A stretch of 18,951 bases of DNA from assembly GCA_031290635.1 (NCBI GenBank), contig JAITNE010000107.1:1-18951 (forward strand). The letters run 5' to 3'. Numbering within the stretch: the first letter of the stretch is position 1; the number at the start of each line of letters is the position of its first letter. This document shows positions 121-16,091 of this stretch, one piece after another. The DNA comes from Tannerella sp. Lineage in GTDB: Bacteria; Bacteroidota; Bacteroidia; Bacteroidales; Tannerellaceae. The notes under the pieces were generated by a model that was not told where the DNA came from, searched no databases, and saw only the letters and a list, made by a program, of their open reading frames with translations. The translations under genes and the position numbers were made by a program.

Positions 121-231
121 GCTCGCGTCAGTCCTTACGCCGGTCGCGTAAGGTCTTACGCCGAGCGCATTTTATCTTACATTTTGATGATTGCTGTTTT
201 ATGCAGCGCTGAAAGCATCTGTCCTTACATT
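121..231. repeat. Degenerate 21-bp tandem repeat at the 3' end of tatD
   Basis: Three adjacent 21-bp units lie at 121-141, 142-162 and 163-183. They share the pattern GCG...TCTTACgcc or TTACatt. A fourth similar unit at 211-231 (ending CTTACATT) contains the tatD stop codon (TTA at 225-227, read on the minus strand). The middle unit holds a perfect inverted repeat, GCGTAAG-GT-CTTACGC, at 146-161. The unit length matches the other 21-bp blocks in the window. I see no coding potential, and bases 1-120 contain nothing I can name. Confidence 0.65.
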
Positions 232-902
232 CCTTTCGTTATCGGATATCTTTGCCCGAACACAGAGTTTTGCTGATGAACGGCTATTTCCTGTGATAAT
301 ATTTCGACGCTTACCTGGAGGTCGGTTGCAATTAGTTCATAGACCTTGTCTATTGATAAGGGTTTGTCGTCGGTTTCAATTAACAGGCGGTCGTTGCGCC
401 ACGCTGATAAAAGCGCGTATTTATTATACGGAATGCTGAACGACAGGTAGAATCCTTCGTAGAGTAATTCTTTCGCGATTTGTTGATTGCCCCTGAAACC
501 GTGAATAATCCACGGCATCTTTGGCTTTAGCTCTCTGTGTATGCTTATTATCTCATTATGTGATTTCACGCAATGAATAATCATGGGCTTGGCTACTTCT
601 TCGGATAAATGTATGTGCTCAATGAACAGAGTGCGCTGGCGCGTGAAATCACTGTATTTCCCGGCTGTCAACTTGTCGAGACCGGTCTCGCCGATAGCGA
701 TAATCTCCGGCATGGCGGCTAATGCGCGTACCGTCGGCATCATCCTGACGTCGGGATGCCAGGGATGAACGCCTGCGGAATAGAAAACCCCTTTCGCATA
801 ACTGATGTCGTGCGAAAGCCGTAAGGTCAAGTCAATGGATACTATCGCAAATGTCCCGACCGGTATATTCTTGTTGTGAGTATGTACATCAATATATGTC
901 AT
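225..902 (-). CDS. TatD family metal-dependent hydrolase
   Basis: TatD-type TIM-barrel hydrolase of 225 residues, a family with 3'-5' exonuclease or deoxyribonuclease activity on DNA ends; cytoplasmic. Visible metal-site residues are the HTH pair H7/H9, E72 in IGETGLD, H110 in MIIHC, H134 in WIIHG and D178 in IETDD, so the active site looks complete. The open frame continues 21 codons further upstream, but family members begin just before the D-x-H-x-H strand, so I chose the ATG at 900-902. It is the last gene of the DUF4271-hemD-rnpA-yidD-tatD series, 92 bp after yidD, and I see no promoter in that gap. The length is normal for the short Bacteroidales form. The stop codon lies inside a 21-bp repeat unit. 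Confidence 0.9.
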   Translation of the reverse strand: MTYIDVHTHNKNIPVGTFAIVSIDLTLRLSHDISYAKGVFYSAGVHPWHPDVRMMPTVRALAAMPEIIAIGETGLDKLTAGKYSDFTRQRTLFIEHIHLSEEVAKPMIIHCVKSHNEIISIHRELKPKMPWIIHGFRGNQQIAKELLYEGFYLSFSIPYNKYALLSAWRNDRLLIETDDKPLSIDKVYELIATDLQVSVEILSQEIAVHQQNSVFGQRYPITKGM

Positions 903-964
903 AAATGTCAATATATATTTAATTGTCAATCGTCTCAAATTGAACGTTGTTTCTTGATTCTCCA

Positions 965-985
965 TTGGGCAGTGGGCAGGGGCAA
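965..985. repeat. Three degenerate heptamers just past yidD
   Basis: Three adjacent 7-mers on the plus strand, TTGGGCA, GTGGGCA and GGGGCAA, start 10 bp beyond the yidD stop codon. They are similar in period to the heptamers at other gene ends in this window, but their sequence differs. The array is short and imperfect, so chance is possible. Confidence 0.45.
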
Positions 986-994
986 GCCCGGCCT

Positions 995-1216
995 CTACGG
1001 TACCGGGTCATATCCGCTGCCTCCCCACGGATGGCAACGAAAAATCCTGCGCAAGGCAAGCAGAGAGCCTTTTAACGGGCCGTGCTTCTTCAATGCCTGA
1101 ACCGCATATTCCGAACAAGTAGGCGTATAGCGACAACTTGCGGGCGTCAGCGGCGAAATGCAGTACCTGTAGAAATATACCGGCAAGAGTAATATCTTAG
1201 TTATAAAATGCTTCAT
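995..1216 (-). CDS. yidD: Membrane protein insertion efficiency factor YidD
   Basis: Small 73-residue protein with the whole YidD family pattern: a hydrophobic N-terminus ([16 protein letters not shown]), then [11 protein letters not shown], an [10 protein letters not shown] motif and the closing GGSGYDPVP. YidD is a peripheral inner-membrane protein that assists YidC-dependent insertion of membrane proteins. The start codon overlaps the rnpA stop by 4 bp (ATGA, 1213-1216), so translation is probably coupled. The rnpA-yidD pairing is conserved across bacteria, which supports both calls. Confidence 0.96.
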
Positions 1217-1608
1217 ACGTTTACAATATTTTCCTTGCCGAAGAGGTTTTTCATTGCCTTGTGCATCGCCTTTTCGATGTTGCGATAGAGCAGTATCTCG
1301 TCGCTGAGATAGGTGAAGGCTACATGCAGATATTTGTTGCTCTGCCGGCAGCTCTCTACAAGCTCGCTTTTATTCAGCCGGTAAGTTTCGCGTACAAGCC
1401 TTTTGATGCGGTTGCGTCCAACTGCCCTGCGAATGCGTTTCTTGGGAACGCTTATCATCACTCGAACGCCCGCCGGCCATCTTCCGTCAACCGCTTCTTC
1501 AAGATATATCACCCGTAAGGGGTATGCCACAAATGCGTTACCTTCGGCAAAGAGCCGGTCAATGTCTTTTTTGCAGGATAAACGCTCCTCGCGGGGAAAA
1601 TCAGCCAT
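1213..1608 (-). CDS. rnpA: Ribonuclease P protein component
   Basis: Protein subunit of RNase P, which helps the catalytic RNA mature the 5' ends of tRNAs. It has 131 residues, near the usual family size. The opening [17 protein letters not shown] matches the family's substrate-cleft strand region, and the basic [10 protein letters not shown] helix (R65-E73) is the conserved RNR motif. The start (ATG 1606-1608) shares one base with the hemD stop (TAATG), and the stop overlaps yidD by 4 bp, so the gene sits in a translationally coupled series. In many bacteria rnpA follows rpmH; here it follows hemD, as is usual in Bacteroidales. Confidence 0.96.
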
Positions 1609-2360
1609 TAGCCGTTGTTTTTCTTCAGATACAAATCAAGTGCGGTAGCCATAGACGGCGCTTCAGGCGTAGGCGCTTCGAGGTCGAGGCGTAATCCGGC
1701 ATTCAGAGCAGCCTTCTGCGTAGTAGGGCCAAAGCAGCCTATCCGTATATCGTTCTGCTTGAACTTCGGGAAGTTCTCCAGCAGGGACGAAATACCCGAA
1801 GGGCTGAAAAATATAAGCATGTCGTAGTCGAATGCCTCGTCTGCGCCAAAATGATTGCTTACTGTGCGATACATGACCGCCATCTTGTATATTATTTTCT
1901 TGCTCTTCAACGTACTCATGAAATCAACCTTGTGTACGTCCGAGACAGGAATAATATACTTCTCCTTCGGATGCTTCATCACTAACTTGCCAAGGTCGTC
2001 CAACTGCCCGTTCGTCGCGAAAAATATCTTGCGCTTGCGGTAAATGATGTATTTCTGAAGATAGACGGCTATTGTTTCGGAGATACAAAAATACTTCGTA
2101 GTTTCAGGTACTACCAACCGTAACTCTTCACACAGATGGAAGAAGTGATCAACACCTGTGCGTGCAGTGAAAATAACTGCCGTATAGTCTGTTATATTTA
2201 TCCTCTGCTGCCTGAACTCCTTAGCCGACATCGACTCAACCTTGATAAACGGACGAAACTCCATCTGTATGCCGTACTTTTTCTCTATGTCAAAATAGGG
2301 CGATTTCGCAGTCGCCGGTTGAGGTTGAGATATCAACATCTTCTTGATTGTCAATGCCAT
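1608..2360 (-). CDS. hemD: Uroporphyrinogen-III synthase
   Basis: Protein of 250 residues resembling HemD, which cyclises hydroxymethylbilane to uroporphyrinogen III in tetrapyrrole synthesis. Family features are an N-terminal LISQPQP strand, the TARTGVDHFF segment, FFSPSGISSLLENFP and the C-terminal IGCFGPTTQKAALNAGLR stretch followed by APTPEAPSMATAL. HemD is weakly conserved in general, so the call rests on these segments and on the DUF4271-hemD-rnpA order. The start overlaps the upstream gene by 10 bp and the stop overlaps rnpA by one base. No other heme genes are in the window. Confidence 0.9.
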   Translation of the reverse strand: MALTIKKMLISQPQPATAKSPYFDIEKKYGIQMEFRPFIKVESMSAKEFRQQRINITDYTAVIFTARTGVDHFFHLCEELRLVVPETTKYFCISETIAVYLQKYIIYRKRKIFFATNGQLDDLGKLVMKHPKEKYIIPVSDVHKVDFMSTLKSKKIIYKMAVMYRTVSNHFGADEAFDYDMLIFFSPSGISSLLENFPKFKQNDIRIGCFGPTTQKAALNAGLRLDLEAPTPEAPSMATALDLYLKKNNG

Positions 2361-3073
2361 AAATTATTAGTTTCAATAATATTAAAAATATAAATCATAC
2401 CCTCATATAAACACACTAAAGGTGTCATTTCGAGAGCGCAAAGGTACAAAGAAAAAAATAAAAACCCCGCTTTTTGGTTGAAAAATATGTAAATAAATCT
2501 GTAAATAAACATTATACGATACAACAAATAGCTGATAATAAGTAATATGTACGCTGTAGAATTATACTCTCCCAATACGAGTATGTAAATCACAGGTAAA
2601 TACAGGCTTATTCCCCACAGACAAAACATGGACTGAAAGTTGCTGAACAGCGTCAGATACTTCGATCGGTCATCAAAAATCCTGCCGGTGAAGTAGATGA
2701 CGCCGTAGTTGATGATGAAAAAGACAAGCAGCAGCAGCATAATTGTTGTCAGAACAAGCAAGCCGGAGAAATAACCGGATGGAATGAAGTACCCGTTTTC
2801 GACGCCGTATGAGAACATGAAAATGCTTAGCAGAATTGTCGTCTGAAATGACATGAAGATGACGAAAAAGAATGTATCGCTTTCGGTTGTCTCCGTAATG
2901 CTCTGACGACGTTCATCCGCGTTGAGGTTGACGAGCAACTTGCCGAACAGAAAACTGTTCGTCCGCAAGACAATAGAGCATACTATCAGCAAAAGCAACG
3001 TTACGAGCAACAAAAAGTCGTTCGAAAACCCTGTACCGTTAAGCGCTATGCCTGTAAATGCCGAGATGTCCAT
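2351..3073 (-). CDS. DUF4271 family integral membrane protein
   Basis: Protein of 240 residues made almost wholly of hydrophobic helices. I can see about six or seven membrane segments, for example FLLLVTLLLLIVCSIVL near the N-terminus, FFVIFMSFQTTILLSIFMF, GLLVLTTIMLLLLVFFIIN and a C-terminal FLFFSLYLCALEMTPLVCLY. It resembles DUF4271, a Bacteroidota family of unknown function found next to hemD. I chose ATG at 3071-3073; the TTG one codon upstream is possible but less likely. The 3' end overlaps hemD by 10 bp. A promoter lies 25 bp upstream of the start. I do not assign a function. Confidence 0.8.
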   Translation of the reverse strand: MDISAFTGIALNGTGFSNDFLLLVTLLLLIVCSIVLRTNSFLFGKLLVNLNADERRQSITETTESDTFFFVIFMSFQTTILLSIFMFSYGVENGYFIPSGYFSGLLVLTTIMLLLLVFFIINYGVIYFTGRIFDDRSKYLTLFSNFQSMFCLWGISLYLPVIYILVLGEYNSTAYILLIISYLLYRIMFIYRFIYIFFNQKAGFLFFSLYLCALEMTPLVCLYEGMIYIFNIIETNNLWH

Positions 3074-3097
3074 CAATTATGTATGTGTTAGAGGCTG

Positions 3098-3105
3098 CAA
3101 AGTTA
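3098..3105 (-). promoter_or_regulatory. Bacteroidota -7 promoter element for DUF4271-hemD cluster
   Basis: TAACTTTG on the minus strand matches the TAnnTTTG -7 element of the Bacteroidota primary sigma factor. It lies 25 bp upstream of the DUF4271 start, in the 59-bp gap after the L,D-transpeptidase gene. I see no clear -33 TTTG at standard spacing. It would let the hemD cluster be transcribed separately from the envelope operon. Confidence 0.6.
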
Positions 3106-3132
3106 CTCAATTAATTGACAATTTGCTGATTT

Positions 3133-4206
3133 TTAGCCGTCAACCACGACGTCTTCGTATGCCGGTGTTACAACAATCAGCGTTTTGCGAGTGGAAATCA
3201 TCGGCACAATAGAGTTGATGTCTTCATTTCGCATGCGAATACAGCCTTCGGATGAACGCGAACCTGCCGTTTCGGGCAGATGCGTGCCGTGTATTCCGAT
3301 GTGATGATGCTCTTTAAAGCGGATAAAGTATTTCCCATAGATACCGGTTATCCGGCCGTTGCCGTCGTTGAAATCGTAGTCCCAGCCGGAAGCGTCGTGC
3401 ACGGCATAGATAGTGAAAATACCTTCGGGCGTTTTATTGTCGCCTTCCCGTTTTTTGTTGCCTGCGTTCTTGCCGGTAGCTACAGGAAAGGTGTGCAAAA
3501 CGCTGTCGGCATAGTTTATCAACCGCAATTTGAGGTCGCGCTTCGACACCAGAATCAAGTCGGTTTTGTTGGGAAACGAGTCCTTCTGCGCCGTCGGACA
3601 GACAATAATCACTCCCGCCGTCGGAATGTACAAGACGTCAAACTCAAAGGGTTTGTTTTTAACTATTTCGGAAAGTATCACGTAGGAGTATGTTTCTTTC
3701 GTAGCGCTGTCGGATTGTATCTGCATTGTCTGTCCGGCAATCGTTTTCAATCCGATACCTTTTACTCTGAAATACGCGACCGAATTATATTCATCGACAT
3801 AACAGACCGAATCAATTGCCCAGCCGGCGAATTGTTCGACCATAGCGGAAGATATTTTTTGTGTTTCGGGCATGCCGGCTACAAGTTCTGCTTCCTTCGG
3901 AAAGGTGGGGGAGGGTTTCAGCTTGTTATAAATCCAAACCTTCGGAATATCTACTCCCGCATTCGGAATATCTACTCCCGCACTCGGAATATCTACTCCC
4001 GCACTCGGAATATCTACTCCCGCATTTGGAGTATCTACTCCCGCATTCGGAATATCTACTCCCGCATTCGGAATATCTACTCCCGCATTTGGAATATCTA
4101 CTCCCGCATTTGGAGTATCAGTACAACTGCTGATGCTGATGCTGATTGCCATTAGTAGCGCGAGGCTGCATGTTGCGCATGTTTGTTTAAGACCGATTAT
4201 GTTCAT
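3133..4206 (-). CDS. L,D-transpeptidase (YkuD) lipoprotein with heptapeptide repeats
   Basis: Protein of 357 residues. An N-terminal lipoprotein signal ends in the lipobox I-S-S-C (C28), so it is probably anchored in an envelope membrane. Residues 31-86 are eight copies of a proline/glycine heptapeptide ([IT]P[NS]AGVD), a likely flexible spacer. The C-terminal third is a YkuD domain: H306 in GIHGTH and C322 in SEGCIRM form the catalytic pattern. YkuD enzymes make L,D cross-links or attach proteins in peptidoglycan. Family members usually have SHGC; here the His is replaced by Glu. The gene lies 15 bp after uvrA and shares its operon with a lytic transglycosylase, which fits cell-wall remodelling. 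A hydrolase-type YkuD function cannot be excluded. Confidence 0.88.
   Translation of the reverse strand: MNIIGLKQTCATCSLALLMAISISISSCTDTPNAGVDIPNAGVDIPNAGVDIPNAGVDTPNAGVDIPSAGVDIPSAGVDIPNAGVDIPKVWIYNKLKPSPTFPKEAELVAGMPETQKISSAMVEQFAGWAIDSVCYVDEYNSVAYFRVKGIGLKTIAGQTMQIQSDSATKETYSYVILSEIVKNKPFEFDVLYIPTAGVIIVCPTAQKDSFPNKTDLILVSKRDLKLRLINYADSVLHTFPVATGKNAGNKKREGDNKTPEGIFTIYAVHDASGWDYDFNDGNGRITGIYGKYFIRFKEHHHIGIHGTHLPETAGSRSSEGCIRMRNEDINSIVPMISTRKTLIVVTPAYEDVVVDG
3949..4116 (-). repeat. In-frame 21-bp tandem repeat, eight copies
   Basis: Eight head-to-tail 21-bp units with no gaps code for the heptapeptide [IT]P[NS]AGVD. Differences between copies are single bases at three sites only. In protein order the copies read T,I,I,I then T,S,S,I: copies 1 and 5 are identical, and so are copies 4 and 8. 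This suggests that a four-copy (84-bp) block was itself duplicated. Because 21 is a multiple of 3, gain or loss of units changes linker length without shifting frame. Confidence 0.97.
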
Positions 4207-4221
4207 CCGTATCAGTATTAT

Positions 4222-7062
4222 TCAAATGATTTCGCGATTGTCAAGTTCTTTTCTCAGGAAGGCTGCCGTATGGCTCGGCGTCTTTGATTTGACGAACTGT
4301 TCGGGCGAGCCGGCGAAGATTACATTGCCGCCGCCACGACCGCCCTCAAGACCCATATCTATAACGTAATCAGCCGACTTGATGACGTCGAGATTATGCT
4401 CTATTATGATAACCGTGTTGCCTTTGTTTACAAGGCGGTTGAGGACGTCGAGCAGGACGCGGATGTCCTCGAAATGCAGACCTGTAGTAGGTTCGTCGAG
4501 GACGTAGAGCGTCTTTCCGGTATCGCGCTTGGCAAGTTCGGTAGCGAGCTTTACGCGCTGACTTTCGCCGCCTGAAAGCGTTGTCGAAGGTTGTCCGAGC
4601 TTGATATATCCAAGGCCTACATCCTGCAAAACCTTGATTTTGCCGATTATCGCAGGTGTATATTCAAAAAACTCTACAGCCATGTTTATCGTCATATCAA
4701 GAATGTCGGCGATGGATTTGCCGCGAAAGCGCACTTCAAGCGTCTCGCGGTTATAGCGTTTGCCGTGGCAGTCTTCGCAAGGCGCGAAGACGTCGGGCAG
4801 GAAGTTCATCATTATTGTCTTGTAGCCGTTGCCCTTGCAGGTTTCGCACCGGCCGCCGGCGACGTTGAACGAGAAGCGACCGGGTTTGTAGGCGCGTATC
4901 TTTGATTCGGGCAACTCAACGAAGAGGCTGCGGATGTCCGAAAAGACGCTTGTATATGTAGCCGGATTGCTGCGCGGAGAGCGACCTATCGGCGACTGAT
5001 CGACGGTAACTATCTTGTCGATATTTTCTATTCCCCGGATTGACTTGTATGGTAGCGGCGTCTGTAGCGAGCGATAGAAATGCTGACTGAGAACAGGTTG
5101 AAGCGTGTCGCTGATAAGTGTTGACTTGCCGCTTCCCGACACTCCGGTAACGCATATCATCGTCGCCAGAGGAAATGTAACGTTCACATCTTTCAGATTG
5201 TTGCCGCTTGCACCTTTGATGCTCAGGAATAGACCGTTGCCGCTGCGTCGGGTAGCCGGTATTTCAATGTTTTTCAGACCGTTAAGATAGTCCGCAGTGA
5301 GCGTGTTAGCCTTGAGCATTTCGGCAGGCGTGCCGGCAAACACAACTTCGCCTCCGAGCCGTCCCGCTTCAGGTCCCATATCTATAACATAATCAGCGCT
5401 TAGCATGGTGTCCCTGTCATGCTCGACAACTATCACCGAGTTACCCGTATCCCGCAGTTCCTTCAACGAGTTGATAAGGCGTACATTGTCGCGTTGATGC
5501 AGGCCGATGCTCGGTTCGTCGAGGATATAAAGCACATTGACGAGGCGGCTGCCTATCTGCGTAGCTAAACGGATACGCTGACTTTCGCCGCCCGAAAGTG
5601 TGCCTGACTGACGGTTAATCGACAGATAATCGAGTCCTACGTCGAGCATAAAACTCAACCTCGAGCGTATCTCTTTCAATATCTCGGCAGCTATTGTACG
5701 CTGCTGAGGCGACATTTCCTTCTCCACAGCCATCATCCAGGCGTGCAGTTCGGAAACATCAAACTCCGACAGTTCGGAAATATTCTTGCCCCCTATCCTG
5801 TAGTGAAGAGATGCTTTATTAAGCCTTTGACCATTACATTCGGGACAGATACAGGTGCTGATATACTGTTCCGCCCATTTCTGTGCAGTATATGAGGCGT
5901 CGTCGTCCTGCTGCATCATGATATACTTCGCCACTCCCTCGTATGAGAGCGTATAGTTGGACATATTACCGATAATCACGTTTTCTTCCGTTCCGTTCAT
6001 TATAACGTCGAGAACTTCTTCGGACATGTCTTTGATCGGCGTTTTGATGCTCTCGCCATATTTACGGCACAGCGACTCTATCTGCTTGAAGATAAACGAT
6101 TCGTGATATTTCCCCAGAGCCGCTATTCCTCCGGAATAAATACTCAGCGAAGGGTCTGGAACGATTTTTTCCATGTCGAGGATATTGACCGTACCTATAC
6201 CCTTGCATTGCTGACAAGCGCCAAAGGGTGAATTGAACGAGAAACTGTGAGGCGCAGGCTCGTTGTACGACAGTCCGGTTACGGGACACATCAACCGGCG
6301 GCTGTAGAAACGGGCTTCGCCCTTATCGGCGTCCATTAGCAGCACAAGCCCTTCGCCCTGCTTCATCGCAAGGGCGAGGCTATCCTTGAGGCGTTTTTCG
6401 TCGTCGTCGGAAACTATCAGCTTGTCAACCACAACTTCTATATTGTGTATCTTGTAGCGGTCGAGTTTCATGCCGGCGCTTATTTCCATCAATTCGCCAT
6501 CGACGCGCACATTGAGGTATCCTTTTTTGCGGGTCTGCTCGAAGAGTTCGCGGTAATGACCCTTGCGACTGCGCACTAAGGGAGCGAGTATATAGGTTTT
6601 AAGCCCTGCATAGTCGCGCAGTATAAGGTTGAGTATCTGTTCTTCGGTGTATCTGACCATTTTTTCGCCGCTGAGATAGGAATAAGCCTCGCCGGCGCGA
6701 GCGTACAGAAGTCGCATGAAGTCATATACTTCGGTAGTAGTGCCGACGGTCGAGCGGGGATTGTTGTTAGTCGTTTTCTGCTCGATAGAAATGACCGGAC
6801 TGAGGCCGCTTATCTTGTCCACATCAGGCCGTTCGATGTTGCCGAGAAAGTTGCGTGCATAAGCCGAAAATGTCTCTATATAACGACGTTGACCTTCGGC
6901 GAATATCGTATCGAAAGCGAGCGACGACTTGCCGCTACCGCTCATGCCGGTGATGACGGTCAACTTGTTGCGAGGTATATCTACATCAATATTTTTGAGG
7001 TTATGCACCCGCGCCCCCAACACGCTCACATATCCGTGTTTGTTTAATTCGTTTGTCTTCAT
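4222..7062 (-). CDS. uvrA: Excinuclease ABC subunit UvrA
   Basis: Damage-recognition ATPase of nucleotide excision repair; a UvrA dimer loads UvrB on lesions. It has 946 residues, the normal length. Walker A motifs are GMSGSGKS (39-46) and GVSGSGKS (about 640-647). Both ABC signatures (LSGGESQR) are followed by LDEPSIGLH and LDEPTTGLH. The C-terminal zinc module is intact (CETC, 19 residues, CEDC). The first zinc module keeps C259, C283 and C286, but the position expected to be the second Cys of the first pair is Thr (CPVT). The gene starts 9 bp after the transglycosylase gene and ends 15 bp before the L,D-transpeptidase gene, so it is cotranscribed with cell-wall enzymes. No LexA-type operator was recognised. 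Confidence 0.98.
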
Positions 7063-7071
7063 ATTACTGTT

Positions 7072-8046
7072 TTATTGTACTACCCAGCGCTCATCATGTA
7101 CGTAGCGAGGCGAACCGCCGTATTTCATTTGATTCGTTTTCGGGATAAGGATAGTATAGCTCGCTCCGTCGGTAAGGAGTTTGTCGTCGCGAAGCCATGG
7201 ATTGAATATTTTCAGATCTTTGAATGTTACGCCGTTTTCTTGAGCAAATGCAGCTAAATCGGGGATGTCGCTGTTGACCGTACGCTCTTGATATTCAAAA
7301 GGTTTATAGAGGTTGTCGGCATGTATGATAAAACCATATTTGTAGGGGTTCTCAAAGATAAGTTTGACCGCAAAGATACGATAGGGATAGCGGGTTGTTT
7401 CTTCCAAAAGATAGAGGTCGAGCGAAGATTCTACGCCCTGCTTATCCATCTGTGTCGTGATACGACCCATTCCAGCATTGTAAGAGGATGCTACCGTAAT
7501 CCAGTCGCCGTATTTGCGATATGCTTCATTCAGATATTTACAAGCTGCTTGGGTTGATTTGGCTACATTGCGTCGCTCGTCAACCGTAGTCGTAATCCGC
7601 AGACCGTACTGTTTACCCGTACCTTCGAGCAGTTGCCATAGCCCTACTGCCCGCGCCGTCGAAACTGCCGTCGGGTCGAGGCTGCTCTCTATCACCGCCA
7701 GGTATTTGAAATCATCGGGGATGCCGTTAGCGCTCAGAATAGGCTCTATTACAGGAAAATAACGATTAGCACGCTTTATCAGCATCATAGTCGTAGAATG
7801 CAAATACGCAAAGCCGCAAAGTTCGCGGTCTATGCCCTCATACGAGTTGTAGCGCGTCAGGTCGATGCTCTTGCCGCAGAATCGGATTGACGACGGCACA
7901 GGAGGCGAGTTAGTGAAGGAGGCTACTACCGGCGTTTCAGCGACTACGGCTGTAGAATCTCTGTGTCCCGTCATCATGCAGGCGGTCAGACCGATAAGTC
8001 CTGCAATTCCTGCAGCTCCGACGGCTTTAATTATGTTTCTTTTCAT
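7072..8046 (-). CDS. Lytic transglycosylase lipoprotein (SLT domain, LysM-like C-terminus)
   Basis: Protein of 324 residues with a lipoprotein signal ending in L-T-A-C (C23). The SLT domain occupies about residues 95-215, with catalytic Glu120 in the AVIESSLDP motif, GLWQLL at 135-140 and [10 protein letters not shown] around 188-196. The C-terminal part (about 250-310, ending YTILIPK) resembles a degenerate LysM fold, giving an MltD-like layout. Such enzymes cleave the MurNAc-GlcNAc bond of peptidoglycan to form 1,6-anhydro ends. The start codon directly follows the TAA of the upstream gene (TAAATG), and the stop is 9 bp before uvrA, so it is an internal operon gene. Whether it is a MltD orthologue or another family 1 enzyme I cannot settle. 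Confidence 0.92.
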
Positions 8047-9378: not shown

Positions 9379-9402
9379 CTTTCTTTTTATCATAAGAAGG
9401 GG

Positions 9403-9410
9403 CAAAGATA
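9403..9410 (-). promoter_or_regulatory. -7 promoter element of the envelope-uvrA operon
   Basis: TATCTTTG on the minus strand matches TAnnTTTG. Transcription should start near 9396, so the ATG at 9378 is preferred over the in-frame ATG at 9393, which would leave almost no leader. It is back to back with the promoter at 9433-9440. Confidence 0.65.
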
Positions 9411-9432
9411 CTAAATATTCAAAAATTATTTC

Positions 9433-9440
9433 TAACTTTG
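9433..9440 (+). promoter_or_regulatory. -7 promoter element of the LysM-PBP1 gene
   Basis: TAACTTTG on the plus strand matches TAnnTTTG and lies 31 bp before the ATG at 9472. With the opposing element at 9403-9410 it forms a compact divergent promoter pair. Confidence 0.65.
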
Positions 9441-9471
9441 CGCTGTTATTATAATCGTAATTCACACTGCA

Positions 9472-11241
9472 ATGAGTAAATTTTTGTTTTTCTCCATACT
9501 TATAGCCTCTTTAATGACGGCAACAAGCCTCTTCGCTCAAGAGGAGGATGTATTTTATCATACCGTCGAACGCGGGCAGACGGTCTATTCTATTGCCAAG
9601 ATGTATGACGTGAAAGTCGATGACATCTACCGGCTTAATATCAACAGCGAAGAATCCATCAAGGCGGGTTCACAGCTGAGGATTCCGCAGAAAAAGGCCG
9701 CAATCAAGGCTGAAGTCGAAGGCGTCTATCTGTTTCATACCATTCAGGCCAAAGAAACGCTCTACGGGGTATCCCAAAAGTACGGCGTAAGCGCTGAGAG
9801 CATCATCGAAGCTAACCCCGGACTGTCGAACCTCAGTTTCGCTACAGGCAAGATTATTCGCATTCCCTCAAATGTCAAGCCTAAGCAGACAACCGAGATA
9901 GTCGAGACCCGCAGAGGGGTTAAAGAGGTTTACTATACCATCCTCGAAAAGGAGACTGTCTATAATCTGTGCAAGAGATTCAAGACGACCGAACAGGAAC
10001 TGCTCAAGCTCAACCCCGAACTTGCAGGCGGTCTGCGCAAAGGCATGACAATACGTATCCCTCTGAGGATTAACGAAGACGACATTAGCCGGGAAGATGA
10101 GCTTGACGCCGGCGAGGTGAACGCCATGCTCGACGCACGGACGGCTGCCAAGCCGGTGAAGGCAGCCCGGATAGCTCTGCTGTTGCCCTACAATGCCACT
10201 AATCCGAAAGTTATAGCAGGCGGATCGTCTATCACCGAATATTACGAAGGCATGTTACTTGCTGCCGATAGCTTGCGCCGTATGGGTTACATAACCGAGC
10301 TGTTCGTCTTTGACATCGGCGACCGCAAGGAAGATCTGCAGAAAATCCTTGACGAGGATGCTGATGTACTCGAAAGCGTCAGTCTTATAATCGGAGGCGT
10401 TTCCAACGAGCAGATACGGCTGATTTCCGACTTTGCCCTCAAATACAAGAAGAAATATGTTATTCCCATCACTTCCAAGAACGATGAAGTGCTGACTAAC
10501 GCCTACGTTTTTCAGGTCAATACGCCTCAGACATATCTTTGTGATAATGCGGCTTTTGCGGCGGCTAACCTCTTCGACAAATATAATATTGTTTTTATCG
10601 ACACCAAAGATAAGGACGAACAGACCGACTTCATCAATACTTTCAAGAAGGAACTGAGAGGTCGCACGACGTCTTTCAGGGATTTTACGTATAACGAGGA
10701 TACTTTCGAGTCGAAGATAATCGCCGACCTGAGCGCCGACAAGCCTAACCTCATCATTCCGCTTTCCAATACGGAAGAGGCTTTGAATAAGATTACAACC
10801 GTCCTGCGCTCGATTACAAACACCAAGCCGGAGTACAAAATCACGCTCTTAGGATATCCTGTATGGCAATCATACAATAAATGTCTGGATGATTACCACG
10901 CCCTCGACACCTATATCTACAGCCTCTTCTATGCAGACAATCTCAATCCTGACGTCAAAGCATTTTACGACACCTACAGGAATTGGTACAGCAAAAGCCC
11001 TTCTCAAAAGCCTTTCCCCAAGTATTCGATGTTAGGCTTCGATACGGGGATGTACTTCTTCGGCTCGCTGCAAAAACACGGCGAAAACTTCGAGACCGAA
11101 CTGCCTGCAACCAAGCACAAAAGTTTGCAGATAGGTTTCAACTTCGAGCGCGTCAACAATTGGGGAGGATTCATCAATACTAATATCTACATCGTCCACT
11201 ACAACAAGGACTTCACCATTACCCGTTCCGATTTCAAATGA
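9472..11241 (+). CDS. LysM x3 protein with periplasmic-binding-protein type 1 domain
   Basis: Protein of 589 residues with a Sec signal peptide (cleavage probably after SLFAQ). Three LysM domains follow at about 29-72 (HTVERGQTVYSIAKMY), 88-132 (HTIQAKETLYGVSQKY) and 154-197 (YTILEKETVYNLCKRF), each ending in R-I-P. From about residue 231 (KAARIALLLPYN) to the end there is a type 1 periplasmic binding fold like that of amino-acid ABC transporter receptors. LysM binds peptidoglycan, so this is probably a wall-bound periplasmic protein. No transporter genes are nearby, so a role as a solute receptor is unproven; a scaffold or sensor role is equally possible. The stop lies within a 26-bp sequence that recurs 40 bp downstream. 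Confidence 0.88.
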   Translation: MSKFLFFSILIASLMTATSLFAQEEDVFYHTVERGQTVYSIAKMYDVKVDDIYRLNINSEESIKAGSQLRIPQKKAAIKAEVEGVYLFHTIQAKETLYGVSQKYGVSAESIIEANPGLSNLSFATGKIIRIPSNVKPKQTTEIVETRRGVKEVYYTILEKETVYNLCKRFKTTEQELLKLNPELAGGLRKGMTIRIPLRINEDDISREDELDAGEVNAMLDARTAAKPVKAARIALLLPYNATNPKVIAGGSSITEYYEGMLLAADSLRRMGYITELFVFDIGDRKEDLQKILDEDADVLESVSLIIGGVSNEQIRLISDFALKYKKKYVIPITSKNDEVLTNAYVFQVNTPQTYLCDNAAFAAANLFDKYNIVFIDTKDKDEQTDFINTFKKELRGRTTSFRDFTYNEDTFESKIIADLSADKPNLIIPLSNTEEALNKITTVLRSITNTKPEYKITLLGYPVWQSYNKCLDDYHALDTYIYSLFYADNLNPDVKAFYDTYRNWYSKSPSQKPFPKYSMLGFDTGMYFFGSLQKHGENFETELPATKHKSLQIGFNFERVNNWGGFINTNIYIVHYNKDFTITRSDFK

Positions 11242-11292
11242 AACTGTTTTTAGTTCAATAACCAGCTCCGATTTCAAATGAAACTGTTTTTA
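11227..11292 (+). repeat. 40-bp-spaced direct repeat across a gene junction
   Basis: A 26-bp sequence at 11227-11252 recurs exactly at 11267-11292, offset by 40 bp. Each copy contains AAATGAAACTG, in which the stop of the LysM gene (TGA, 11239-11241) overlaps a potential ATG. In the first copy the ATG at 11238 opens only MKLFLVQ before TAA; in the second, the ATG at 11278 starts the next gene. The simplest reading is a tandem duplication that separated an originally ATGA-overlapping pair. Confidence 0.95.
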
Positions 11293-11934
11293 CTTCTCTT
11301 CCTTATTATCTCTGTCCCGCTTGCGAATGCGCAGATTGTGCAGACCTTGCCTTACGAGTTTGTAGTCGGTATTTCGGGAGGCTCTACATTCTCGTCGGTT
11401 ACTTTTAATCCAAAGGTAGTGCAGGGTACGATTAACGGCCTTACTTTTGGTCTTATCGGTCGCATGACTATGGCGGAGAACGTCGGGCTGCAGATTGAAC
11501 TGAATTATGCCGAAGAGGGTTGGGCGGAGAAGTTTGAAGAACAGCCGGAGTACCGTTACGAACGCCGTCTGCGCTATCTGCAATTTCCGTTCTACACTCG
11601 CGTACAGTTTGGCGGACGCACGGTAAAAGCTTTTGTCAATGCCGGGCCGCAGATAGGTTACATGTTAAGCGAGGCTACCGACGAAAACCTCAACGGCGAA
11701 GCGCCCGGCAAGGTTAACGCTCAGCATGATATGAAGGTCTCGAACCGCTTTGACTGGGGATTGAGTGGCGGCGCAGGCGTCGAACTGCGTACTTCGGTCG
11801 GCTATTTCACTATCGAAGGGAGATATTTGTATGCCTTAGGCGATATTTATTCCACAAGTCGCGCCGACTACTTCTCCAAAGCTTCAGCTCAAACAATCAC
11901 CGCCAAAGTAGCGTATCTGTTTGTGATACATTAG
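11278..11934 (+). CDS. PorT-like outer-membrane beta-barrel protein
   Basis: Protein of 218 residues with a clear signal peptide (MKLFLLLFLIISVPLANA, cleavage before Q19). The rest alternates polar and hydrophobic residues in strands typical of the small PorT-type outer-membrane barrel family: GISGGSTFSS, LGLQIELNYAEEG-like segments, YLQFPFYTRVQFG, AFVNAGPQIGYML, DWGLSGGAGVEL and a final strand ending in AYLFVIH. Such proteins sit in the outer membrane; some family members support type IX secretion, but this one cannot be placed from sequence alone. It follows the LysM-PBP1 gene in an operon whose overlap was broken by a 40-bp duplication. Its stop is 3 bp from the convergent flavin reductase stop. 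Confidence 0.82.
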   Translation: MKLFLLLFLIISVPLANAQIVQTLPYEFVVGISGGSTFSSVTFNPKVVQGTINGLTFGLIGRMTMAENVGLQIELNYAEEGWAEKFEEQPEYRYERRLRYLQFPFYTRVQFGGRTVKAFVNAGPQIGYMLSEATDENLNGEAPGKVNAQHDMKVSNRFDWGLSGGAGVELRTSVGYFTIEGRYLYALGDIYSTSRADYFSKASAQTITAKVAYLFVIH

Positions 11935-11937
11935 CTG

Positions 11938-12501
11938 TCACTTCTTCTTTACCGTCCATCCGAAGTATCCTATTACATCATCCAGACCGTAATAGTTACC
12001 GTGAACATAAACGAGCAGATCGGCGCGTTTAAGGTCGAAAGCGCCGGTTGCGGGGTCTAAATAGCGGTCGTCGATACGGACATTTACTACATCCGAAATA
12101 AACATGTCGTGCGAGCCGAGCGCAAGTACTTCCTTCACTCTGCACTCGATGCAGACGGGCGACTGCTCTATCAGCGGCGCTCGCACTATCGACGACTTGC
12201 CGGCGGTAAGTTCCATCTCGGCAAACTTGTTATGATCGCGTCCGGAAACTACGCCGCACCAGTCTGTAGCCTTAGCCATCTCGCGGGTAGTAAGGTTGAT
12301 AACGTACTCCATCTGCTTTTTCAGAACAGGATAGGAATGACGCTCAGGACGCACCGAGATATAACACATTGGAGGGTTAGAGCAGATAGTGCCGATCCAG
12401 CTGACGGTCATAATATTGTATTCCGATTCTTCGCCGCCGCAGCTAATCATCGCTGCCGGCAAGGGGTAAATCATTGTCCCCGGTTTCCAATCTATCTTCA
12501 C
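11938..12501 (-). CDS. Flavin reductase-like FMN-binding protein
   Basis: Protein of 187 residues with the flavin reductase-like split-barrel pattern: PLPAAMISCGG, NIMTVSWIGTICSNPPMCYISVRPERHSY, YVINLTTREMAKATDWCGVVSGRDHNK in the middle, and a C-terminal VYVHGNYYGL. These proteins bind FMN and many reduce flavins with NAD(P)H; the substrate is unknown. The start is GTG (12499-12501), whose first base is the last base of the pyrI stop (TAGTG). No ATG in a better position keeps the conserved N-terminus MKIDWKPGTMIYP, so I accept GTG. It is the third gene after pyrB and pyrI and has no obvious pathway link to them. Confidence 0.88.
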   Translation of the reverse strand: MKIDWKPGTMIYPLPAAMISCGGEESEYNIMTVSWIGTICSNPPMCYISVRPERHSYPVLKKQMEYVINLTTREMAKATDWCGVVSGRDHNKFAEMELTAGKSSIVRAPLIEQSPVCIECRVKEVLALGSHDMFISDVVNVRIDDRYLDPATGAFDLKRADLLVYVHGNYYGLDDVIGYFGWTVKKK

Positions 12502-12515
12502 TATGCGTTATTCAC
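12497..12515 (-). repeat. GAATAAC-type repeat copy at the pyrI stop / flavin reductase start
   Basis: On the minus strand, GTGAATAACGCATAGTGAA matches 17 of 19 bases of GTGAATAACGAACAGTGAA at 14780-14798, the heptamer array at the aldolase stop, which lies in the opposite orientation. The copy encodes the last residues and the stop of pyrI and supplies the GTG start of the flavin reductase. Confidence 0.7.
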
Positions 12516-12962
12516 TATTTTAATATCTTCCTTATTGATTTTGCGTTCGCAGTAGCGGCATTTGATAGTGCCCATTCCGCGATCTATGACATAGAAGCGG
12601 GAGTCCATCGGTTCGTTGTTTGAGATACACTTGGGGTTGTTGCATTTGACGACGCCAACAAGTTCGTCCGGCAGGCTGACAAACTTCTTCTCTACTACCT
12701 CATAGTCGCGGATGATGTTAAGCACCACATTAGGAGCGACCAGAGCTATACGGTTTATCTCATCTTTCTCGAAGAACTTGTCCGCAATCTTTATCACACC
12801 CTTGCGCCCCATCTTTTTACTTTCGAGGTTATTGCCGATAGTGATACGGTTCTCCGTTTTATCGAGGCCAATCAACTGCGCCACTTTAAACAGATGTTCC
12901 GGCGGGATATGGTCTATAGCTGTGCCGTTTTCGAGGGCGGCTACCTGTAATTCCTTTGACAT
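12501..12962 (-). CDS. pyrI: Aspartate carbamoyltransferase regulatory subunit
   Basis: Regulatory chain of aspartate transcarbamoylase, 153 residues. It binds nucleotide effectors and joins PyrB trimers. The N-terminal part carries the allosteric-domain pattern ([21 protein letters not shown]). The zinc site is complete: C107, C112, C135 and C138 in a C-x4-C-x22-C-x2-C layout. The presence of PyrI suggests a dodecameric, allosterically regulated enzyme as in enterobacteria. It follows pyrB by 48 bp, a gap that contains a heptamer repeat, and overlaps the flavin reductase start by one base. The last residues (VNNA) are encoded by a repeat sequence. Confidence 0.97.
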
Positions 12963-12989
12963 GATTTTCAGTATATTTTAAACAGTTAA

Positions 12990-13022
12990 TTCTCAATTCT
13001 CAATTCTCAATTATTCATTCAC
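12990..13022. repeat. Heptamer tandem repeat at the pyrB stop
   Basis: Three perfect 7-bp copies (TTCTCAA on plus, i.e. GAATTGA-phase on minus) occupy 12990-13010, directly after the pyrB stop (13011-13013). The heptamer register continues as degenerate units into the pyrB 3' end (TAATTGA, GAATGAA). No stem-loop or U tract marks it as a terminator. Confidence 0.9.
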
Positions 13023-13928
13023 TATTCCCAGCACATCGCATATAATAGCTTCGCGGGTAAAAAGTCCGTTCCTTGCCTGCTGAATATAGTAAGCCTTGGG
13101 GTTGTTGTCCACGTCGTAGGTAATCTCGTTGACCCTCGGCAGAGGATGGAGGATACGCAAGTTAGGACGCGAGTTGTCGAGCATCCTGTTCCGCAGGATA
13201 TAAACGTTCTTGACCCGTTCATACTCTACAATATCGGTAAAACGTTCCTTTTGCACCCGCGTCATATAAAGAATATCCGTTTGGTTGATAATATCTTCCG
13301 AGAAGACCGTATGTTCCTGATATTCGATATGATGTTGACGGCAGATACGCTTCTGTTCATCGGGCATTCGGAGTTCGACGGGCGCGATAAAATGAAACTT
13401 CGGGCTGAAGTGCGACATGCCCGCAATCAGCGAGTGAACCGTGCGCCCATACTTGAGGTCTCCCACCATGGTAACGGTCAGATTATCGAGCCGCCCCTGC
13501 GTTTTACGGATAGAATAGAGGTCGAGCAAAGTCTGGGAGGGATGTTGATTAGCCCCGTCGCCGGCGTTGATAACCGGCACATCGGTAACTTCGGAGGCAT
13601 ACCTCGCCGCGCCTTCAAGGTGATGTCGCATGATGATTACATCGGCATAGTTGCTCACCATCAGAATAGTATCCTTCAAGGTTTCACCCTTTGAGGAGCT
13701 GGTCGTCGAGGCGTCCTGAAAGCCTATCACACGCCCTCCAAGCCTGTTTATCGCCGTCTCAAAGCTAAGACGGGTACGGGTAGAAGGCTCAAAAAACAGC
13801 GTAGCCGCCACCCGACCTTCCAGCAGGTTACGGTTCGGACAGCGTTCAAACTGTTCCGCGCTGTCGATAATCCTTAGAATATCCTCTTTGGCGCATTGAT
13901 CAATAGAAACTAAACTTTTCTTCAACAT
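13011..13928 (-). CDS. pyrB: Aspartate carbamoyltransferase catalytic subunit
   Basis: Catalytic chain of aspartate transcarbamoylase, 305 residues, which condenses carbamoyl phosphate with aspartate in pyrimidine synthesis. Active-site motifs are complete: FFEPSTRTR (carbamoyl-phosphate loop, S49-R53), [10 protein letters not shown], the TRVQKERF aspartate-loop segment and HPLPRVNEI. The length is standard. Transcription probably starts near 14042 from a TAnnTTTG element, giving a leader of about 114 nt that consists almost wholly of 21-bp repeats and contains a short upstream reading frame. pyrI follows 48 bp downstream. The 3' end runs into a heptamer repeat. Confidence 0.98.
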
Positions 13929-13975
13929 ATTACCGGGGATTTATTTCCTGTTATATCTAAAATCTTTTCTGTCAT
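13922..13975 (-). CDS. Possible 17-residue upstream reading frame overlapping the pyrB start
   Basis: In the predicted pyrB leader an ATG at 13973-13975 opens [17 protein letters not shown] and stops at TGA (13922-13924), running past the pyrB start codon (13926-13928) in another frame. It is encoded by the 21-bp leader repeats, and I see no strong ribosome site. It could affect pyrB translation or be accidental. Confidence 0.3.
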
Positions 13976-14045
13976 ATCCAATATCTTTTCAGGTTGATTT
14001 AATATCTTTCGAGTTATCTCTGCTATCTTCCCTGATTGATTCGCG
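13938..14045 (-). repeat. Five 21-bp tandem repeats in the pyrB leader
   Basis: Five contiguous imperfect 21-bp units run from 13941 to 14045. In the phase starting at 13938, 13959, 13980, 14001 and 14022 they share a plus-strand core AATATCTTT (or AAAATCTTTT, GCTATCTTCC). On the minus strand one frame reads as heptads such as EKILDMT and EKILDIT, but this frame has no start codon near the promoter. The same core and phase recur at 15051-15155. Confidence 0.85.
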
Positions 14046-14048
14046 ACA

Positions 14049-14056
14049 CAAAAGTA
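14049..14056 (-). promoter_or_regulatory. -7 promoter element of pyrBI
   Basis: TACTTTTG on the minus strand fits TAnnTTTG. A TTTG lies 22 bp further upstream (14079-14082), slightly beyond the usual -33 spacing. Transcription would begin near 14042, immediately before the leader repeats. Confidence 0.6.
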
Positions 14057-14087
14057 ATTATTTTTTTTCTATAACGCACAAATTTCG

Positions 14088-14095
14088 TACATTTG
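14088..14095 (+). promoter_or_regulatory. -7 promoter element of the KDPG/KHG aldolase gene
   Basis: TACATTTG on the plus strand fits TAnnTTTG and lies 25 bp before the ATG at 14121, giving a short leader of about 19 nt. It diverges from the pyrB promoter. Confidence 0.65.
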
Positions 14096-14120
14096 CAACC
14101 TCATAAACAAGAAAAACGAT

Positions 14121-14783
14121 ATGGCAAAATTCAGCAAGTTAGAGGTTTTAAACACCATTGTCCGCACAGGCATAGTCCCTGTTTACTACAACAAGAACTC
14201 CGAGACGGCGCGGAACGTCCTTGAAGCATGTTATTTAGGCGGCATTCGCGCCTTCGAGTTCACTAATCGCGGCGATTTCGCGCAGGACGTTTTCGCCAAG
14301 TTAGTAAAGTATGCCGCCAAGGAATGTCCCGAGATGATACTTGGCGTCGGCTCGATAGTTGACGCACCTACGGCGTCGATGTACATGCAGACAGGCGCAA
14401 ACTTCGTCGTAGGCCCGCTCTTCAACCCCGACGTAGCCAAAGTCTGCAACCGTCGACTTGTACCTTACACCCCCGGTTGCGGCTCGGTAAGCGAGATAGG
14501 CTTTGCCCAGGAAGCGGGCTGCGACCTCTGCAAGATATTCCCTGCGGGCAGTGTAGGCGGCGTATCCTTCGTCAGCAACATCCTTGCGCCGATGCCCTGG
14601 ACTATGATAATGGCAACCGGCTCGGTCGAGCCAACCGAAGAAAACCTCTCCGCATGGTTTCGTTCCGGCGTAACCGCCGTCGGCATGGGTTCAAAACTAT
14701 TCCCCAAAGAAGCCATCATCACGGGCAACTTCCAAGTCATCACCGACCTCTGCGAAAAAGCCCTCAAATACGTAAAGAAGTGA
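14121..14783 (+). CDS. eda: Bifunctional KDPG/KHG aldolase
   Basis: Class I aldolase of 220 residues that splits 2-keto-3-deoxy-6-phosphogluconate to pyruvate and glyceraldehyde 3-phosphate (and 4-hydroxy-2-oxoglutarate to pyruvate and glyoxylate). The Schiff-base lysine is K138 in CKIFPAG. E46 in FEFTNR corresponds to the catalytic acid/base, and R15-GIVPVYY is the phosphate-side strand. The remaining (beta/alpha)8 motifs ([26 protein letters not shown]) are intact. It stands alone, without kdgK, uxa or edd genes in the window, so sugar-acid use cannot be inferred from context. The stop codon is the first part of a heptamer repeat array. Confidence 0.95.
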
Positions 14784-14823
14784 ATAACGAACAGTGAATA
14801 ACGAATAACGAACAGTGAATATC
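14780..14823 (+). repeat. GAA-initial heptamer array at the aldolase stop codon
   Basis: Six heptamers in register from 14782: GAATAAC, GAACAGT, GAATAAC, GAATAAC, GAACAGT, GAATATC. The aldolase stop (TGA, 14781-14783) overlaps the first. The last units create a perfect 7-bp hairpin, ACAGTGA-ATA-TCACTGT (14812-14828). It lacks a U tract, so it is at best a weak or factor-dependent terminator. Confidence 0.9.
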
Positions 14824-14844
14824 ACTGTCATTAACTGTTCATTA

Positions 14845-14949
14845 TGTTTGGTAGCCTACGCATTATGATTGGTAGTCTACGCATTCTGTTTGATAGCATA
14901 ACTGTTTAGTTTGATAGCCTGACTGTTTAATTTGGCAGCATAACTACGT
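14845..14949. repeat. Five imperfect 21-bp tandem repeats
   Basis: Units at 14845-14865, 14866-14886, 14887-14907, 14908-14928 and 14929-14949 share a TTTGRTAGC core (one copy TTTGGCAGC) at the same position. The first two end in CTACGCATT; the third and fourth end in ACTGTTT. One plus frame gives heptads FGSLRIM, IGSLRIL and FDSITV, but stops interrupt it. The block continues the 21-bp spacing of the preceding heptamer array without a break (14782-14949 is 168 bp). Confidence 0.85.
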
Positions 14950-14980
14950 GGAAGATTAGGAAGAATGCACCGTATGTTGA

Positions 14981-15022
14981 CCTCAACGCGTAACGCGTTG
15001 TCCTAAACGCGTAACGCATTCC
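14981..15022. repeat. Two 21-bp repeats with a palindromic ACGCGT core
   Basis: Units at 14981-15001 and 15002-15022 share CCTmAACGCGTAACGC. In the first unit CAACGCGT-A-ACGCGTTG (14984-15000) is an inverted repeat perfect except for the central base. Two MluI-type hexamers lie in this block. It could be a protein-binding site; no gene is associated. Confidence 0.8.
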
Positions 15023-15031
15023 CTCTATTAT

Positions 15032-15250
15032 TTATAGCAGAGAAGGTAACAATAACTCTGGGTAGCTTACTAATATCTCTGAATACATTATCAAAATCTC
15101 CGGGTAGCTTACTAATATCTCTGAGGACATCATCAGTATCCCGTATTTAAGACCTGCCGAACTTATACTCGATACCGATGATACCTCCCGGACTACTTTC
15201 TCCTTAAAACAATTACTGTAACGATAATACGTTCTGATACTTTTTGTCAT
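15032..15250 (-). pseudogene. Relic of a transposase OrfA N-terminus fused to 21-bp repeats
   Basis: An ATG at 15248-15250, preceded by GGAGAAAG, opens a 72-codon frame. Its first 38 codons (MTKSIRTYYRYSNCFKEKVV, then REVSS and AGLKYGI) look like the N-terminal helix-turn-helix part of the IS3-type OrfA transposases common in Bacteroidota. After KYGI the expected second half is missing. The frame instead runs through repeats as heptads ILMMSSE, ILVSYPE, ILIMYSE, ILVSYPE and ends after LLLPSLL. No OrfB and no terminal inverted repeats are visible. I read it as a degraded insertion-sequence fragment; whether a peptide is made is unknown. Confidence 0.6.
15051..15155 (-). repeat. 21-bp tandem repeats related to the pyrB-leader repeats
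   Basis: Units starting at 15051, 15072, 15093, 15114 and 15135 share AATATCTCTG or a close variant on the plus strand. Units one and three are nearly identical (both have GGGTAGCTTACT). The core AATATCTYT lies in the same phase and strand as in the units at 13959-14042. The repeats begin exactly where the transposase-like sequence ends. Confidence 0.85.
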
Positions 15251-15299
15251 GCTTTCTCCTCTATTTTTGTACACCTGTGGCAGGACATGACAATAACTT

Positions 15300-15320
15300 C
15301 TAATTCCTAATTCCTAATTC
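15300..15320. repeat. Three perfect heptamers forming the 3' end of birA
   Basis: CTAATTC is repeated three times on plus (GAATTAG on minus). Read in the birA frame they encode the last residues (ELGIRN) and the stop codon, so the array provides the gene's own terminus. Confidence 0.92.
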
Positions 15321-16037: not shown

Positions 16038-16049
16038 TGAGTTGTGAGT

Positions 16050-16083: not shown

Positions 16084-16091
16084 CCGGTGCG

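Follow-up and report, generated by a model that had tools for sequence, protein, structure and literature searches.

The window analysed here is a stretch of 18,951 nucleotides (JAITNE010000107.1; contig C117) from a Tannerella sp. assembly (GCA_031290635.1; G000) that comprises 1.61 Mb in 236 contigs and is 59% complete. It carries tatD, yidD, an L,D-transpeptidase gene, pyrI, pyrB, a gene for a KDPG/KHG aldolase and the biotin ligase gene birA, and tandem repeats with units of 7 or 21 bp lie at, between or within these genes. Among the matches listed to named genomes, the best for its pyrB are Tannerella sp. metagenome-assembled genomes (MAGs) at 80–87% and Parabacteroides at 82–84%; we take these Tannerella bins to be of termite gut origin. 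The 7-bp and the 21-bp arrays are two distinct repeat classes, and the 7-bp arrays recur at dispersed loci of a genome in units that few related genomes share.

Repeats were located with Tandem Repeats Finder (TRF), and an independent lag scan served as a second method. In the window, 14 of 23 TRF rows have a period of 7, 14, 21 or 42. A perfect heptamer array, (AATTGAG)3.6 on the sense strand, was detected by TRF across the pyrB stop codon (12988–13012, minus strand; stop codon 13011–13013), and the pyrB sense strand lacks C there. The array (GAATTAG)3, likewise perfect and without C on its sense strand, makes up the final codons of the birA open reading frame (ORF) together with its stop codon (15300–15320, minus strand) and has matches on many contigs of G000. 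The TRF array that includes the aldolase stop codon (14779–14821, plus strand) is a higher-order heptamer array of GAATAAC and GAACAGT units; it has a lag-7 identity of 0.67 and contains C (9 G, 5 C), related arrays lie on contigs C107 and C43, and TRF periods of 7, 14 and 21 extend over the aldolase end and beyond (14779–14945). A heptamer-like stretch at the pyrI stop and flavin reductase start (12497–12515, minus strand; lag-7 identity 0.50) is sub-threshold, with no TRF row at score 30. The weak 7-bp repeat downstream of yidD (966–984, minus strand; ORF 995–1216; TRF score 31, lag-7 identity 0.75) may be chance and is at noise level, since Markov-shuffled 388-kb copies yield ~9 period-7 rows at a score of at least 30 compared with 46 observed. 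Seven of the nine repeat blocks listed in a preliminary description of the window were thus clearly recovered by TRF (score at least 42), the yidD and pyrI blocks being the other two. It counted five blocks that overlap a stop codon. Those at pyrB, the aldolase and birA clearly do, and the overlap at pyrI is sub-threshold; the tatD and yidD repeats lie 61 bp and ~10 bp downstream of the stop.

The two periods are favoured genome-wide. In a sample consisting of the window and 60 further contigs (388 kb, 24% of the assembly), TRF returned 139 rows at a score of at least 50, compared with 0.2 per shuffle in first-order Markov simulations, and a chance origin of the arrays was rejected. The commonest periods were 21 (30 rows), 7 (18), 42 (13), 15 (8) and 14 (7), followed by 9, 18 and 23 (6 each), 41 (5) and 43 (4). 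The lag scan gave 52 arrays per Mb at lag 7 and 64 at lag 21, with none at lags 8, 10 and 22 and 5 at lag 20; values at lags 8, 10, 13, 20 and 22 all lay between 0 and 5 per Mb, and minor peaks appeared at lag 9 (21/Mb), lags 15 and 23 (13/Mb each) and lag 24 (10/Mb). Both methods therefore show an excess of 7- and 21-bp periods over neighbouring lengths and over shuffled sequence, as had been proposed from the window. The lag-9 peak includes a dispersed 9-bp class of the AATTCGTGA type (L010:269–351, L022:11869–11912, L035:5646–5673).

Lag-7 arrays were also found in other Bacteroidales samples, at densities of 92/Mb in Bacteroides ndongoniae (compared with 20 at lag 8 and 2 at lag 10), 15 in a Prevotella MAG, 14 in 78 pyrB-neighbourhood loci and 13 in genome G014. 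The lag scan found none in 326 kb of genome G017, which has five matches to one unit elsewhere. The 21-bp arrays are mainly a feature of G000 (64/Mb, compared with 5–15/Mb in the other five samples). Arrays of 22 bp are slightly commoner than those of 21 bp in 55 other Bacteroidales loci (17 and 14 TRF rows); examples lie at L109, L092, L103 and L120, and some appear palindromic by eye.

The preliminary description had treated the 7- and 21-bp repeats as one family whose sequences differ between blocks. The sequences do differ, but the single family does not hold: the 21-bp arrays have a mean lag-7 identity of 0.30 and a different base composition. No 7-bp sub-period was present in 22 of 25 21-bp arrays from G000 (lag-7 identity of 0.5 or less), and the three that have one, including window positions 14782–14821, are higher-order heptamer arrays. 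Both G and C occur in quantity in 23 of these 25 arrays, whereas one of the two is missing from 98 of 100 heptamer units.

The latter count comes from six samples totalling 2.83 Mb, in which 104 lag-7 or lag-14 arrays were found and four were removed for low complexity. B. ndongoniae contributes 45 of the 100, and the counts are not independent events. Genes were taken as the longest ORFs, so that start positions are approximate and the avoidance of starts may be overstated. Predictions were fixed beforehand and then checked on a held-out set of 22 arrays (23 G000 loci on unsampled contigs, L202 and pyrB loci L143–L171). The 98 arrays represent 32 of 34 distinct units, and the corresponding share among random intergenic heptamers is 48%; for units with at least two G+C, G or C is absent from 70 of 72, compared with 30% of random intergenic heptamers. 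The composition prediction was borne out in the held-out loci, where 21 of 22 units lack G or C.

As had been suggested from the window, many of the 7-bp arrays are held at gene ends. Of the 100 arrays, 46 lie near or across stop codons (28 of them crossing the stop by an edge criterion), 23 lie within 60 bp upstream of a start or across it, 9 are inside ORFs away from the ends and 22 are elsewhere. Called genes flank 77 arrays on either side, and 21 of these arrays overlap a stop codon. When arrays were placed at random in these spacers plus 60 bp, the expected number was 13.8, and 27 of 2000 trials reached 21. The proposed enrichment at stop codons is thus present, and modest. Starts are avoided, with 3 of the 77 overlapping a start codon compared with 11.3 expected. 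In the units near stops, a stop triplet is present on the G-bearing strand in 44 of 46 and on the opposite strand in 14 of 46.

The arrays also have a strand polarity. On the sense strand, G exceeds C in 40 of 46 arrays at stops and C exceeds G in 18 of 23 at starts (3 of 5 in G000 alone), while array-free 30-bp stretches behind stops are near even (568 G-rich, 513 C-rich and 133 ties). For the 69 arrays between two called genes, the G-bearing strand points outward in 41 of the 46 that lie up to 20 bp from a gene end and in 5 of the 14 that lie more than 60 bp away. Where one spacer holds both orientations, the G-bearing array comes first on the plus strand in 9 of 9 cases. In the held-out loci, the stop-side polarity within 20 bp was kept in 7 of 8 and the order in mixed-orientation spacers in 3 of 3; the start-side rule failed (1 of 4), and the overall outward rule up to 20 bp, at 8 of 12, missed the preset value of at least 80%. 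A polarity set by the replication strand was rejected: in B. ndongoniae, the G-bearing strand coincides with the G-richer strand of the 20-kb stretch that contains it 24 times and with the other strand 21 times.

Searches of 41 genomes (G000, 24 of the same genus and 16 of the same order; overlapping exact matches within one array counted) revealed how the units are distributed. The three-copy unit of the pyrB-end array, (AATTGAG)3, has 47 matches in G000, 82 in G020, 16 in G019, 1–5 in five others and none in 33. By comparison, (TTAACCA)3 is present in 6 of the 41 genomes and has no match in G000, (CTAMACT)3 is present in 5 and AATTCAT in 10. The junction between pyrB and pyrI could be read in 22 same-genus genomes (of 25; the other three lack a pyrB match), and six of these carry a lag-7 or lag-14 array there, each with a different unit: AATTGAG, AATTACG, AATTAAA/AATTAAG, AATTCAT, TTAACCA and CTAAACT/CTACACT. 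Shuffled junctions give 0.12 (lag 7) and 0.08 (lag 14) arrays per set of 22; single junctions have best lags of 4, 12 and 15. Five of the six junction units were searched for. Each is limited to between 5 and 10 of the 41 genomes and recurs elsewhere in its host genome, at one further locus in G002 and at several in the others.

The flanks of arrays with the same unit are mostly unrelated. Compared with shuffled letters, flank likeness in G000 (n = 8) was 0.25 versus 0.25 upstream and 0.29 versus 0.25 downstream, and in B. ndongoniae (n = 23) it was 0.30 versus 0.29 and 0.28 versus 0.26. Private vocabularies, different units at one junction and unlike flanks speak for array DNA being copied within a genome and then changing in length. 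A carrier element that moves the heptamers was considered and rejected, because a search of B. ndongoniae with up to three mismatches located the 44-bp core that separates inverted arrays at just two places, the two ends of one ORF; these two places carry direct copies of a composite of heptamer array, core and inverted array (L209:16059–16160 and 16856–16957). In the same genome, pairs of non-complementary units nearly abut at L204, L211 and L219, and AAACCCT, the complement of the plant telomere heptamer TTTAGGG, runs mixed with related units at L219:15972–16040, L213:9159–9240 and L218:10334–10924. A nested inverted repeat follows a stop codon on contig C49 of G000 (L036:8170–8763); by eye, it holds heptamer arrays whose variants stand in almost exactly mirrored order, together with the repeat CATTGCGAGGCACGAAGCAATC and AATCTGCGTCATCTGCG, around a central 42-bp array.

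The 21-bp class takes several forms in the window. A minisatellite of 2.3 copies (115–163, TRF) lies 61 bp downstream of the tatD stop and has related copies on contig C21 (L022:9965–10017 and 10052–10100; 81–82%), and a repeat of 2.2 copies was detected by TRF in the pyrB leader (13944–13990). Three distinct 21-bp modules and a linker lie in the island between the aldolase gene and birA: module 1, of the TTTGGTAGCCTACGCATTATG type (14840–14945, TRF), to which a stretch of contig C34 is similar by eye; module 2, of the CGCGTTGTCCTAAACGCGTAA type (14976–15017), also on C34 and C166; the linker CTCTATTATTTATAGCAGAGAAGGTAA (15023–15049), common to the window and C34; and module 3, a 21/42-bp minisatellite of the ACTCTGGGTAGCTTACTAATAT type (15051–15135), also on C34 and C107. 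On C34, modules 2 and 3 and the linker follow one another as they do in the window (76% across the alignment). The similarity of other contigs to the island stops where the modules stop, and the few copies seen showed no conserved leader, tail or terminal inverted repeats. By eye, one frame of module 3 (window 15051–15135; L173:190–430; L044:1–380) reads as a heptapeptide repeat of the I/L-T-N-N-S-G-E/D type, in which TAG or TAA takes the place of the glutamate codon GAG in the window copy and in some of those on C34, while the frame is open in C107.

An in-frame array is present in the L,D-transpeptidase gene (3941–4119, minus strand, TRF), where 8.5 copies encode a linker of AGVDIPN-type heptapeptides N-terminal to the YkuD domain (residues 217–345); a motif upstream of the linker is presumably a lipoprotein signal. 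The linker array is absent in the seven relatives aligned, out of 70 found besides the protein of the window. Tandem arrays of 41–43 bp lie at L027:5099–5260, L031:2933–3062, L015:13–392, L046:2057–2185, L049:628–805 and L039:6605–6781. Some have internal inverted repeats by eye, and those at L027 and L031 belong to one family (90% over 136 bp). Elsewhere in the window, an Rfam scan gave a single match, a tRNA; this tRNA-Asn gene (16091–16165) overlaps the 5′ end of the listed biotin ligase ORF (15300–16115, TTG start), whose true start is therefore probably downstream.

The explanation that we favour, with a probability of roughly 60%, is that the 7-bp arrays are tolerated dispersed heptamers that are copied within the genome and change length by slippage, and that the 21/42-bp arrays are unrelated minisatellites. 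The heptamer arrays would be short dispersed repeats of the short tandemly repeated repetitive (STRR) or long-simple-sequence-repeat kind. Each genome would retain a few private heptamers, usually with one strand lacking C, and array DNA would be copied, mostly without its flanks, to further intergenic spacers within that genome; the probable route is recombination between repeats, or template switching between them, while DNA is replicated or repaired. The length of an array could then shift in 7-bp steps by slippage. Such arrays may be tolerated in spacers but not at start codons or ribosome-binding sites. A gene's 3′ tail is dispensable and could accept an array as well, since stop codons are usually present on the G-bearing strand where that strand is the sense one; arrays would thus be left beside or across stop codons. 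The 21/42-bp minisatellites would form dispersed multi-module blocks in intergenic islands; in coding sequence, a unit of 21 bp, or seven codons, would keep the frame and give rise to the heptapeptide linker. We infer from these patterns the copying and slippage themselves, the reason for the polarity and the absence of a dedicated function.

Several observations weigh against this explanation. No copying event was directly observed, and a few arrays of B. ndongoniae share their inner flanks. The stop polarity exceeds what tolerance alone would predict, since 11 listed arrays that begin 0–19 bp behind a stop, and so need no stop codon of their own, all have the same polarity. The stop content of the units near stops is not clearly higher than in shuffled units (44 versus 40.8 of 46), so selection for stop codons was not demonstrated and we rejected stop codons as the selected content of the units. 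The composition rule is not universal, as AATTACG (9 of 41 genomes, with most matches in G005 and G040) has both C and G. Inverted arms, which could form functional hairpins, occur in 24% of 55 array spacers compared with 8% of 1165 others; as a universal feature of array spacers, hairpins were rejected.

Pure polymerase slippage with a 7-nt step, in which arrays grow from local sequence because the polymerase interacts with a 7-nt stretch (proposed by Mrazek, as given in PMC4679880), would account for the sharp peak at lag 7 and the empty lags 8 and 10 in G000. Indels between two Cyanothece strains are also mostly in 7-nt increments according to the cited passages of that paper. As a complete explanation it is nevertheless unlikely. 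The preliminary description had considered slippage with a favoured length, and this is not sufficient alone: a genome carries the same heptamer at many loci, with mostly unrelated flanks, and most relatives lack it; such shared vocabularies are not explained by growth in place. Lag 7 does not stand above lags 8–10 and 14 among sub-threshold duplications outside arrays, where counts are small, and composite head-to-head arrays with a nearly identical junction sequence occur at both L204 and L219 of B. ndongoniae. Functional 3′-end elements, either RNA hairpins or unstructured tails that terminate transcription or translation or control messenger RNA stability, would place the orientation under selection. 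They would fit the sense-strand bias at stops and starts, the outward orientation close to gene ends, the G-bearing-first order (9 of 9, and 3 of 3 held out) and the excess of inverted arms. We regard this as distinctly unlikely, however, given that hairpins are confined to a minority of spacers, that the start-side rule held in 1 of 4 held-out loci and is weak in G000, that 16 of the 22 same-genus genomes have no heptamer array at the pyrB–pyrI junction, and that no arrays were found in 326 kb of G017, although five one-unit matches lie elsewhere in that genome.

Helical phasing, which had also been raised for the window, would make the 21/42-bp arrays protein-binding sites and agrees with peaks at 21 and 41–43 bp, or about two and four helical turns. 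It is quite improbable, because the spread over 41, 42 and 43 bp and the in-frame coding case fit minisatellite expansion equally and 21-bp arrays are mainly confined to G000; no regulator or half-site was found, and none was searched for. The head-to-head order in all 12 mixed-orientation spacers, which include those with the nearly abutting pairs of non-complementary units, is also what would result if the heptamer arrays were footprints of end extension, in which each 3′ end at an intergenic break is extended outward by a C-free repeat, as at a telomere, and the ends are then joined. This is very improbable; if it were true, Bacteroidales would possess an unrecognised repeat-adding activity. 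A candidate for templated addition at broken ends followed by joining would be a telomerase-like bacterial reverse transcriptase of the DRT10/UG17 type. G-bearing strands that point outward and lie head to head recall telomere G-strands, which have a similar orientation, and AGGGTTT, a rotation of the plant telomere heptamer TTTAGGG, is among the B. ndongoniae units. Reverse transcriptases are present in the array-bearing genomes G041, G047, G009 and G013. No RVT_1 match was found in the array-bearing G000, G002, G008, G011 and G045; none of these assemblies is known to be complete, the RVT_1 model could overlook divergent enzymes, and no DRT10-specific model was used. With five array-bearing genomes lacking a match and the outward rule not replicated on the start side, such an enzyme is not supported and is very improbable, even though DRT10 makes tandem-repeat complementary DNA from an RNA template (cited passages of PMC12632851).

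Whichever process is at work, the stop-codon strand rule is a sharp constraint on it. Private vocabularies with a different unit per relative at one junction mean that a comparison of sister strains could catch the repeats spreading, and spacer-based predictions of operons or terminators in such genomes run over repeats. The 7-bp class agrees with STRR and long simple heptanucleotide repeats in its excess of 7 bp over other lengths and in being mainly intergenic and dispersed. The 21/42-bp arrays appear closest in kind to the BrickBuilt minisatellites of Porphyromonas gingivalis, which we take to belong to the same order as the window genome. As described in the cited passages of PMC4596501, BrickBuilt, a miniature inverted-repeat transposable element, is likewise an intergenic minisatellite with a unit of about two helical turns and dispersed, divergent copies. 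Its unit is 23 bp, unlike the 21/42 bp of the window (23-bp arrays exist elsewhere in G000), and the conserved leader, tail and terminal inverted repeats described for it were not found among the few copies seen here. An enzyme such as the defence reverse transcriptase DRT10 (PMC12632851) would also yield tandem repeats with strand polarity; in five array-bearing genomes, no RVT_1 match was found.

For the heptamers, the preliminary description had stated that no equivalent was known in such bacteria, which is incorrect: the cited passages of PMC4679880 describe intergenic direct repeats of TAACTGA in Beggiatoaceae, Cyanobacteria and five Bacteroidetes. Both kinds are 7-bp tandem repeats that are intergenic, dispersed and patchy among species, sometimes mix heptamers and sometimes lie beside stops. 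They differ in that two-copy TAACTGA has no match in the window and the sampled sets, and TAACTGA has both C and G whereas most units here lack C on one strand. Most TAACTGA repeats of the Beggiatoa strain lie just upstream of starts by the same passages, while here starts are avoided and many arrays cross stops. The GGGAATC repeats of Xanthomonas and the GGGGA(T/C)T repeats of Nostoc (cited passages of PMC4692102) are also dispersed intergenic heptamer arrays, unlike which most units here have no G run, the exceptions being AGGGTTT and AGGGTTG in B. ndongoniae. In most genomes, heptanucleotides are reported to outnumber other long simple repeats (Mrazek 2007, as cited in PMC4679880); the explanation offered there for 7 is contact with the polymerase, and coding sequence is said to prefer multiples of three. 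Our data agree on both the heptamers and the coding preference (see also PMC4692102). The cited passages contain no tested explanation for the preference for heptamers over 6- or 8-mers, and a detailed literature on heptamers was lacking in 2015 according to PMC4692102. Private vocabularies, differing junction units and strand polarity are not described in Mrazek 2007 as cited, and searches of full-text literature, whose coverage mostly leaves out subscription papers, listed no report of genome-private heptamer vocabularies or strand polarity in Bacteroidales. The heptamer excess and the heptamers of Bacteroidetes are thus already published, and the private vocabularies, the reseeding of one junction with different units and the strand polarity seem to be new.

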